64,000 nt of DNA from NCBI GenBank assembly GCA_903918755.1, contig CAIXFN010000035.1, positions 1 to 64,000 of the forward strand, given 5' to 3'. Positions 59,044 to 61,466 of this stretch are shown piece after piece. The notes under the pieces are model-generated. The model had not been told where the DNA came from. It made no database searches and saw only the letters and a list, made by a program, of their open reading frames with translations. The translations under genes and the position numbers were made by a program. This DNA comes from an uncultured Pedosphaera sp. GTDB lineage: Bacteria; Verrucomicrobiota; Verrucomicrobiia; Limisphaerales; Pedosphaeraceae. The stretch's first letter is position 1. The number at the start of each line of letters is the position of its first letter.

Positions 59044-59249
59044 ATTCGGCCCGCTCGACCTTTCGGTGGACGAGCATCATCAAGAATTGTGCCCTTGTCC
59101 GAGGCCCTGGGGGTATCCCCCCACTAGCCAGGCCACGCAATTACGGGTTATCGGATTGAAAGGCCCCCGAGCACGGACGGCAAAGAGAATCATGTGAGTG
59201 CGGCTTGGGCTGGCTTCGCGGATGGAAAGCAAATTGCGGATTCCAAAAT

Positions 59250-59828
59250 ATGAAACCAATCATCAAGCTATTGCAGCCGGCTTTCTGGCTGCGTCTTCCG
59301 CGCCTCAGTGCCAGGAGGGCGCTTGTTCGTGGCCAATTGCTGGTTATTTTCGCACTCGTAGCCATGCTGGCCTCGGCCATTCCCGCAACGGCCGGCGACT
59401 TGCAAACGGCCAGGAAAGCAAATCTAGAAATGAGCCAGGGAGATGTCCGGGTCATTCTTTTGCGAACCCGGTCGGTCGTTTTGACCAATGGCCAATCGGG
59501 CTTCGCCGTGACTTTTGCGGTGGAAGTTCCGCAGAAAGGCGCGTTTTCGGATCTGGCGTTTAGCAGCGACACCGAAGTCGTGCTCATCGAGGGAGGAAAG
59601 TTGCTTACTCCCCCTGGATTCTCGGGAATGATGTATGGGAGTTTCAAACAGCTTCCTTTTAGAAATGAATTGATCGAACCAGCTACCACTGACGGGAACG
59701 CGATGTGTGTCGAAGACGTGGTTTTCACTGGAATCGCGGTCCATGCCCGGAAAATCGACATCAGAATCCAGTTTTCCTGGCGGGGAAGCCCCCAGCGCTT
59801 TGACTTCAAGAACGTGGTAGTGGATTGA
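59250..59828 (+). CDS. Exported hypothetical protein
   Basis: A 192-residue protein from the ATG at 59250. A basic N-terminus is followed by the hydrophobic stretch LLVIFALVAMLASAIPATAG (about residues 32-51), a signal peptide that is somewhat far from the start. The mature part, about 140 residues, is beta-rich (VRVILLRTRSVVLTNGQSGF, AVTFAVEVPQKGAFSDLAF, IDIRIQFSWRG) with one cysteine, and may be a single beta-sandwich. I recognise no family. It lies 76 bases upstream of the sigma factor gene on the same strand; a link between the two is possible but not shown. Confidence 0.65.
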   Translation: MKPIIKLLQPAFWLRLPRLSARRALVRGQLLVIFALVAMLASAIPATAGDLQTARKANLEMSQGDVRVILLRTRSVVLTNGQSGFAVTFAVEVPQKGAFSDLAFSSDTEVVLIEGGKLLTPPGFSGMMYGSFKQLPFRNELIEPATTDGNAMCVEDVVFTGIAVHARKIDIRIQFSWRGSPQRFDFKNVVVD

Positions 59829-59903
59829 CTGCTTTCTGAGGGTGGAGGTTCGGCGATTTTCTGTCCGGTTTCGATTTTCGGTGCCGTATAGTAGGCGAAG
59901 ACG

Positions 59904-61466
59904 ATGACTGATGATCGCGAATTATTGGCCCGGTATGTGGACGAAGGTTCCCAGGATGCCTTTGCGCTCATCGTGGACCGTTATCTCAATCTGGTTTATG
60001 CCAGTGCGCTCCGGCAGGTGGACCACGAACTGGCGGCGGATGTGGCGCAGACGGTGTTTATCAATCTGGCACGGAAGGCGCGCACGTTGCCGCGTCACAT
60101 CCCGCTGGCTGGTTGGCTGCACCGGGATACCCGGTTTACCGCCATCGATTTGCTGCGGACCGAGCAGCGCCGGCGGGCGCGCGAGCAGGAGGCTTTGGCG
60201 ATGAACAACCTGAGTCCTGATTCGGCGGCCGACTGGACGACGATTCGTCCGGTGCTGGATGCTGCGCTGGATCATTTGCCAACGGCCGACCGGGATGCCG
60301 TTTTGCTTCGCTATTTTGAGCAACGCTCCTTGCGGGAAGTGGGGGAAGCTTTGGGATTCAGCGAAGAAGCCGCGCGCAAGCGGGTTGCACGGGGCCTGGA
60401 AAAGCTCCGGGATTCGCTGGCGAGGAAGGGGGTTCATACCACCGCGGCAGCACTTTCGATTGCCCTGACCGCCAACGGCAGCCCGATGGCGCCCGTCGGT
60501 ATGGCTTCCCTCATTTTGCCGGCCGCCCTGGCGGCCGGTGCCCAGACCGCAGCCGGGGGACTCCTGGCGGCCAAAATCACGGAAAGTATCCTCATGACCA
60601 AACTCCAATTCAGCACCGTATCCGTCATCATCGCCGCCGCTTTGACGACGGGATTTCTTCAGCACCAGTCCGCCGCCACCCTGCGGGCCGAGAATGCCGC
60701 CCTGCGGGCGACGATTGCTGAAAAGGCTCGTCAGGAGGCCGAAAACGCCACCCGCACTGCCGCTGTGGCGACGAGCCAACCGGCCGGTTTGACGCCGGAC
60801 CAACTGTCCGAACTGCTTCGCCTGCGGTCGCAGGTCGGGCAACTGCGCTCGGAATTGAAGGGGGCGCAGGCGTCCCGGCCGGGCTCCGCCGCTCGCCCGG
60901 TAGCTCCGGAGGCCGTGGCGGCCCCTGATCCGGTCGCCGCCCAACCCTTTACCGTGGAATTGACCGCGCGGGTGCCGGCCGGACAGAGCTTGATCACGGG
61001 TGGATGGACCACGTCCCCGGGAATGCGCACTTTCATCTGGGTTAATCCTTCCGGGGTGGCGCAAGCCAAGGCGGCCGACGGGTCGGTTAATTCGGGGCAA
61101 GCCCTGCTGAGTTCCGTGATCTTTGAGGTTCCCGAGAAAGCGCTGACGCAATTGGGGCTGGATCAACTGACGAGCGCGGGGGCGCAGAGTGCGGTGCAGG
61201 GACTTTTGGGCGCAGCGAATGGCAAATCCCTGCTGGAGGCGCTAAGCAACACGGAAGGCGTCAACATTCTCAGCAAACCACGGGTCCAGACAAGTGACGG
61301 GGTGGCGGCGAGTATCAGCATTGGCGAATCGTCGTCGAATCCTGGTGAACCGGCCAGCGGTCACACCATCGAATTCACCCCCCACGTCGCCGCCGACGGT
61401 TCCGGGGTCGATCTGGCCATGAAAGCGGTCATCCGGACGGCCAAAGCGAAGCCCGGAGACCGTTAG
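59904..61466 (+). CDS. ECF sigma-70 factor with membrane-anchored secretin-like extension
   Basis: A 520-residue protein. Residues about 8-90 are sigma-70 region 2 (YVDEGSQDAFALIVDRYLNL, ADVAQTVFINLARKA, LAGWLHRDTRFTAIDLLRTE), and about 112-172 are region 4 (LDHLPTADRDAVLLRYFEQR, GFSEEAARKRVARGLEKLRD). A hydrophobic stretch follows (about 180-225), then a predicted membrane helix (VSVIIAAALTTGFLQ, about 239-253), coiled coils (257-282, 296-322) and a C-terminal domain. Its end, GVNILSKPRVQTSDGVAASI, with TIEFTPHVAADGSGVDL after it, resembles the secretin fold of type II secretion proteins. The sigma part is of the type frequent in Pedosphaera-like bacteria. A membrane-bound sigma factor that senses something outside by its own extension is an inference. 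Confidence 0.85.
   Translation: MTDDRELLARYVDEGSQDAFALIVDRYLNLVYASALRQVDHELAADVAQTVFINLARKARTLPRHIPLAGWLHRDTRFTAIDLLRTEQRRRAREQEALAMNNLSPDSAADWTTIRPVLDAALDHLPTADRDAVLLRYFEQRSLREVGEALGFSEEAARKRVARGLEKLRDSLARKGVHTTAAALSIALTANGSPMAPVGMASLILPAALAAGAQTAAGGLLAAKITESILMTKLQFSTVSVIIAAALTTGFLQHQSAATLRAENAALRATIAEKARQEAENATRTAAVATSQPAGLTPDQLSELLRLRSQVGQLRSELKGAQASRPGSAARPVAPEAVAAPDPVAAQPFTVELTARVPAGQSLITGGWTTSPGMRTFIWVNPSGVAQAKAADGSVNSGQALLSSVIFEVPEKALTQLGLDQLTSAGAQSAVQGLLGAANGKSLLEALSNTEGVNILSKPRVQTSDGVAASISIGESSSNPGEPASGHTIEFTPHVAADGSGVDLAMKAVIRTAKAKPGDR

Follow-up and report, generated by a model that had tools for sequence, protein, structure and literature searches.

An ECF sigma factor fused to a membrane helix and a secretin-related domain in an uncultured Pedosphaera sp.

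Architecture and predicted membrane topology of the fused protein

The DNA analysed here, a stretch of 64,000 nucleotides from an uncultured Pedosphaera sp. (contig CAIXFN010000035.1, positions 1 to 64,000; hereafter the window), carries near its end a single intact reading frame of 520 residues without internal stops. The gene and the features assigned to it, all on the forward strand, are as follows.

59862-59890, + strand: promoter-like element TGTCCGGTTT-N10-TGCCGTATA, ending 13 bases before the start codon (family recurrence, fixed-spacing scan)
59904-61466, + strand: whole fused gene, 520 residues plus stop (ATG at 59904 to stop at 61466; orthologous fusions)
59973-60173, + strand: sigma-70 region 2, residues 24-90 (Pfam PF04542, E 1.7e-7)
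60264-60410, + strand: sigma-70 region 4, residues 121-169 (Pfam PF04545, E 1.3e-12)
60426-60593, + strand: conserved Ala/Gly-rich hydrophobic linker, residues 175-230, with Pro197 in 38/38 aligned members (column counts, hydropathy)
60594-60596, + strand: Met231, directly before the membrane helix and the start point of stand-alone homologues
60600-60662, + strand: predicted membrane helix, about residues 233-253 (hydropathy, charge bias)
60663-60863, + strand: coiled coil, residues 254-320, with the family motif ELLRLRGEVxxLR, here ELLRLRSQVGQLR (303-315) (AlphaFold2, column counts)
60942-61058, + strand: N-part of the C-terminal domain, residues 347-385, whose GqTLvxGG piece matches the end of secretin cores (hhalign, HMM placements)
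61059-61463, + strand: C-part of the domain, residues 386-520, matching the first part of secretin cores (profiles, AlphaFold2)
61239-61430, + strand: Pfam Secretin match within the C-part, residues 446-509

The sigma regions PF04542 (Sigma70_r2) and PF04545 (Sigma70_r4) both scored above their Pfam cut-offs, and the protein reached 79.2 bits against the NCBIfam ECF superfamily model sigma70-ECF (TIGR02937; cut-off 42.9). The first-pass annotation of this DNA had described an ECF sigma factor and a membrane helix within 520 residues, which the intact frame, these matches and the helix near 233-253 bear out. It had also named coiled coils, in agreement with the helices that AlphaFold2 placed at 251-290 and 298-323; the model of the whole protein had a mean pLDDT of 70.1 and a pTM of 0.35. 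The coil motif is a family trait, with the commonest residue at each of its eleven columns present in 27-35 of 38 members.

Besides the helix near 233-253, we found a second hydrophobic stretch near 195-213 that the annotation did not mention. The two are nearly equal in the window protein (mean Kyte-Doolittle values of 1.74 and 1.67), and across the family the better-scoring segment was the helix near 235 in 28 of 38 members and the second stretch in the other 10, which leaves room for a second membrane pass. Were the second stretch to cross the membrane as well, the C-terminal domain would be cytoplasmic and might bind the sigma part or act as its scaffold; the near-equal scores are what speaks for this arrangement, which we regard as quite unlikely given that the helix near 235 scores best in most members. 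Mean net charge in the 36 scorable of the 38 members was +2.1 before the helix and +0.9 after it, and this bias, together with stand-alone homologues that start at the helix, favours a single pass with the domain outside. Secretin-derived domains, moreover, are envelope domains.

The secretin-related C-terminal domain

The C-terminus had been likened to the secretin core. Kinship with secretins is well supported by sequence comparison, but an intact core was not found: the domain is shortened and its halves are exchanged. The Pfam secretin family PF00263 matched with an E-value of 2.7e-4 in the whole protein and 1.4e-5 in the C-terminal part alone, with scores (21.0 bits for the whole protein, 25.1-25.2 for the domain) below the curated 27.5 bits, and 10 of the 22 family members had a match at E <= 0.01. 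When PDB sequences were searched with a domain profile, 20 of the 21 matches at E <= 1 were secretins (best 2.6e-6). Read in ordinary order, only the first half of the secretin profile matched, and the GG end of the core sat upstream of it. The lip segment, which in secretins connects the GG motif to the final TP strand, is missing as a stretch of 29 alignment columns, and no Pfam family of secretin N-domains matched the 520-residue protein at E <= 1.

The order of the halves was examined by setting a profile (A1) of 22 C-terminal domains against secretin ORFs taken from genomes of the same family. In HMM placements the second part of this profile fitted the beginning of the core, with a best E-value of 2.2e-16; the leading 39 residues of the profile were placed on the GG motif near the core end in 26 of 34 ORFs by hand count, each such placement being weak on its own (best i-E 0.0098, whole-sequence E 7e-4; best reversed decoy 2.4). 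For hhalign we used a template of 29 ORFs, L067, L076, L082, L085 and L099 having been dropped as wrong frames. The original order aligned with a single core at a score of 101.1 over columns 45-164 only, whereas a core written twice yielded one alignment of 159 columns running across the junction (score 129.7). Exchanging the halves raised the score against a single core to 122.7, compared with 105.0 for a control in which the moved half was reversed, and the N-part piece aligned with an E-value of 1.9e-5 (reversed control 0.21). ORF by ORF, the exchanged profile beat the original in 29/34 and the reversed control in 30/34, counts that include at least five wrong frames and are not independent trials because secretins are mutually related; the reversed control itself also beat the original in 13/34 (hand count).

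The Myxococcus xanthus PilQ structure (3jc8) hinted at a different arrangement. Its matching profile pieces were ordered 26-68, 92-165, 4-21, with the GG piece at only -0.2 bits, and piece 26-68 precedes the core, so that PilQ is partly aligned in ordinary order. The corresponding proposal, that the N-part is a stretch lying upstream of secretin cores in ordinary order, found no support in the secretins of the family. With the template lengthened by 60, 120 and 180 residues upstream, the alignment of the original order began at column 42 (100.8-101.2), and the first part kept its place on the GG motif at the core end; in this run the GG piece had an E-value of 8.1e-6 and the TP piece (GKRTLvLvTP on the last TP strand), weak alone, 0.0038. 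The exchanged order, interpreted as circular permutation, is thus supported at the level of sequence profiles.

The annotation had proposed structure prediction as a check on the C-terminus. Comparison of predicted structures was weaker evidence than sequence, leaning towards secretins in one search and giving no match in another. The AlphaFold2 model of residues 347-520 (pLDDT 83.3, pTM 0.81) was mostly beta with one long helix. Foldseek returned no match to it at E <= 0.001. The leading 28 rows of VIA-align included 24 secretins (Z 4.4-5.9), whose register differed from that of the sequence alignment, and the top row was a non-secretin, CcsBA (Z 6.8). Compared with the PF00263 secretins (GspD, PilQ, InvG), the domain, taken with its halves exchanged, shows profile similarity along most of the core; unlike them, it has the exchanged order, no lip segment, no N-domains that we could find and a predicted inner-membrane helix before it. 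A literature search, in which sigma factor and secretin were not queried jointly, found no circularly permuted secretin among the matches listed.

The window's own genome has two secretin-like cores about 1.5 kb apart (C34:87366-87926 and 89401-89910; L072 and L073), and a permuted core could have arisen from tandem cores such as these. Separately, locus L031 of genome G004 encodes a stand-alone membrane-anchored protein with a shortened secretin core that seems, by eye, to be in ordinary order.

Distribution, module exchange and stand-alone relatives

The sigma half is not confined to the window. Its genome contains eight further genes (L002-L009) with the same sigma half and different ends, as well as one (L010) that lacks the sigma part but encodes the membrane helix, the coil and the C-terminal domain. 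The sigma fusion was present in four of eight genomes of the family (the window's own, G003, G005 and G006). Within the order, 88 of 293 genomes matched at E <= 1e-60, and a nearly full-length fusion (query residues <=7 to >=505) was counted by hand, among the matches listed, in at least 24 of the 293, the window's own included; the fusion is therefore not an assembly error of one genome. A phylum-wide draw of 387 genomes, with few members of the order in it, gave matches in 22 at E <= 1e-45, none of which, among those listed, extended past query residue 389 except the window's own protein. The C-terminal domain was detected in five of these 387 genomes at E <= 1e-15, four of them outside the order, in frames of 291-420 residues. 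Among the loci that carry names, two appear by eye to be proteins already in the set: L104 (a Pedosphaera sp. MAG) that of G005, from the same family as the window, and L105 (a Limisphaerales MAG) that of G208, from the same order.

Mapping the C-termini onto a tree of 38 sigma halves, 21 of which bear the secretin-related domain, indicated that one sigma-membrane-coil front end is common to the family and is followed by differing C-termini. With nine rows in no group left uncounted, the domain required five label changes, at least four of them forced by well-supported branches; 17 of 500 label shuffles were as low as observed, so the label is also partly clustered on the tree. The window protein grouped with L037, L038, L039 and L040, all domain-bearing (99/86), and the next row outside this group, L058, has by eye another C-terminus (97/89). 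Two of the labels on the tree were assigned by eye, namely 'pilin' and, in the case of L058, L059 and L063, 'sno'. Among 15 C-termini scanned, only those of L007 and L009 reached a Pfam cut-off, both with carboxypeptidase-regulatory-like domains, and DUF4878 matches below cut-off were found in L055 (E 8e-5) and L057 (0.0089). The C-termini of L002, L049 and L051 carry FADGH/FGDGH-type motifs and look by eye like pseudopilins; neither Pfam nor NCBIfam gave a pilin match for L002 and L049. L009, on contig C5 of the window's genome, is a family sigma factor in an open frame of 1252 residues, with three carboxypeptidase-regulatory-like stretches in the part examined.

Repeated gain or loss, along with the divergence of the domain (22-39 % identity between other copies and that of the window), might be expected of a mobile membrane module merely attached to sigma genes and devoid of any regulatory role. 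We consider this highly improbable, as open fusions have been kept in so many genomes of the order and the domain alignment retains invariant G, W, G and P columns.

Full-length domain matches (profile start <=10, end >=155) listed in the order numbered 70 by hand count, comprising 26 in frames of at least 500 residues, 23 of which sit in genomes with the sigma part shown, and 44 in shorter frames, some of them cut by contig ends. The annotation had asked whether the parts exist elsewhere as separate genes. The membrane-coil-domain part does occur alone, but the fusion itself is conserved, and the fused reading of the gene stands. The idea that a stand-alone domain gene is paired with a sigma gene was rejected, since a sigma gene was found in only three of 20 such loci; in the other 17 no family sigma gene was found nearby, with some contigs ending close by. 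In L142 the sigma gene lies 1.45 kb upstream on the same strand, and in L145 and L158 the sigma part overlaps the membrane-coil-domain part in another frame, representing either broken or shifted fusions or assembly errors.

By eye, 13 of 19 stand-alone proteins begin with a methionine directly before the helix, in the manner of a signal anchor. The fusions keep a methionine at the same place: in 33 of the 36 members that could be scored it lies no more than eight residues ahead of the helix (background 11.7 %). This suggests that a sigma gene was once joined to the start of such a stand-alone protein. The same two observations would also fit a gene with two products, in which a second start at Met231 yields a separate membrane-coil-domain protein that tunes the fused one. 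An internal start with a Shine-Dalgarno sequence was not supported: there was no match at Met231 and no enrichment at the internal methionines of the family. Most of the family's own starts also lack such a sequence, which softens this result. The methionine may be a relic of gene fusion or be needed in the helix, and we judge a two-product gene decidedly improbable.

A shared promoter-like element and a proposed model of regulation

Family sigma genes are preceded by TGTCCGGTTT, followed in many rows, some 10 bases on, by CGGC and a T/A-rich part. Within 70 bases of the start taken, at least 8/10 matches to TGTCCGGTTT were found for 31 of 38 family sigma genes (2.5 expected from shuffles) and at least 9/10 for 20 of 38 (0.27 expected); L009 was outside these 38, and for many rows the TTG taken as the start lies some codons within the gene, and the 70 bases then reach into coding sequence. 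Of the other ECF genes of the window's genome, 2/9 reached 8/10. The stand-alone genes did so in 1/19 cases (L160 not scored), namely L145 with its sigma remnant; in at least four of the 19 (L142, L150, L152 and L156) the first ATG lies inside the domain and the wrong stretch was scored. At fixed spacing, three sites in 7.19 Mb had no more than one mismatch, all preceding family sigma genes (L002, L004 and that of the window). Allowing two mismatches gave 55 sites against 39 in the control and placed a site at five of the nine family genes of the window's genome, L003, L006, L007 and L009 being without one; of 27 two-mismatch loci examined, one was a family sigma gene (L008's). As the pattern was drawn from family genes, weight falls on the absence of other best sites and on recurrence across genomes. 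These best sites, all lying at family sigma genes, suggest from sequence alone that the sigma factor may regulate its own gene. The element resembles ECF promoters.

A wider regulon was not supported. The window's genome gave 12 pattern hits against six in the control. The hits fall on 11 distinct places; three of these lie before family sigma genes, and at the remainder no gene start was seen by eye at the family's distance. Two two-mismatch sites in this genome, L184 (C30:29230) and L195 (C56:40065), are followed after 19-21 bases by an ATG opening a frame (116 and 123 residues, respectively) and are possible further targets. Since the window's element ends 13 bases before the start codon, the leader of a transcript begun there would be very short. 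Most family start codons likewise have no Shine-Dalgarno match and a promoter-like element very close, and family transcripts may be nearly leaderless.

A separate anti-sigma factor may be dispensable, as the annotation had suggested for direct control by the protein's own membrane domain. We rejected an anti-sigma gene next door, the neighbours being a DUF4337 protein, a 207-residue protein, ThiH, a PQQ propeller and a DUF2071 protein; neither a FecR-like anti-sigma domain nor a TonB-dependent receptor was matched by Pfam in the protein or the five neighbour genes scanned. ORFs of at least 100 residues within about 3-4 kb were compared among six fusion loci and one stand-alone (the window, L101, L102, L103, L105, L106 and L141), and no common neighbour that could be an anti-sigma factor was found; the only neighbour in common was the PQQ propeller of the window and L141 (26 % identity, E 9e-31). 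The 207-residue protein (59205-59828, same strand, directly upstream of the fusion) seems by eye to begin with a hydrophobic segment, and no Pfam family matched it above cut-off.

Sigma factors tethered to the membrane are already known, so the principle of the window's fusion is not new. PMC5411451 describes how, in IutY of Pseudomonas putida, a membrane helix tethers the ECF domain and Prc and RseP set it free; PMC8999054 classes this sigma/anti-sigma hybrid as ECF243. IutY resembles the window protein in combining an ECF sigma factor, one membrane helix and a periplasmic domain (predicted to be so here) in one chain, and differs in that its periplasmic domain is an anti-sigma domain and its gene adjoins the receptor gene iutA, where the window protein has a permuted secretin-like domain and no such neighbour. 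The many alternative C-termini of the window's family also set it apart from IutY. ECF48, ECF52 (SCO4117) and ECF53 of Actinobacteria, for which PMC8999054 reports proposed proteolysis, share the C-terminal membrane-helix fusion and long extension; they belong to another phylum and have a zinc-finger part, of which Pfam found no match in the window protein at E <= 1. In the literature covered, a permuted secretin sensor and modules exchanged behind a common sigma front end appear to be new.

On balance, we lean slightly towards a one-piece, membrane-held ECF sigma factor that is freed when its permuted secretin sensor receives an envelope signal. The N-terminal sigma domain would lie in the cytoplasm, a single helix would cross the inner membrane, and the coil would bear a periplasmic sensor derived from a secretin core that was circularly permuted and lost its lip segment. 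By analogy with IutY, the resting sigma domain would be held at the membrane until the outer module responds. The signal would be an envelope change acting on the permuted domain; most likely a protein partner, for instance a secretin or some other beta-rich protein of the envelope, would bind to it or be lost from it. Contact between proteins is suggested by the origin of the module, and contact with secretins is conjecture. Passed on by the coil, the signal would free the sigma domain, probably through stepwise proteolysis including a site-2 protease, and the freed domain would act at TGTCCGG-type promoters, its own included. A site-2 protease family, M50, is present in the window's genome, but M50 proteases also occur in all 14 control genomes and their presence says little.

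Membrane-held one-component regulators of the ToxR/CadC type work from the membrane. The fused sigma factor could similarly function, or be blocked, without cleavage, the coil and C-terminal domain altering access to RNA polymerase, and the retention of the coil motif and of the linker with Pro197 across differing C-termini would suit a fixed rod. We consider this unlikely, since IutY, a tethered sigma fusion studied experimentally, is freed by proteolysis according to PMC5411451.

A further elaboration of the membrane-held, releasable sigma factor, which we think unlikely, is a plug-in platform: a single sigma-membrane-coil transmitter would accept exchangeable envelope modules, and every cell would have several self-regulated sigma factors without need of an anti-sigma factor. 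In the window protein the permuted secretin subunit would be a decoy that senses whether real secretins are being assembled or are misplaced at the inner membrane, and would switch genes directly. Eight places in the window's genome score above the secretin cut-off. We know of no sigma factor fusion in the Psp response. That system is described in PMC5596341 as a regulatory response to secretins mislocalised in the inner membrane.

If the favoured reading is true, one protein would be sensor, anti-sigma factor and sigma factor at once, and new inputs would be gained by swapping the outer domain, much as in sensor kinases. Verrucomicrobia would then join the lineages with tethered sigma factors, the secretin core would have found a use outside pores, and the promoter element would serve to find the genes that the sigma factor controls.
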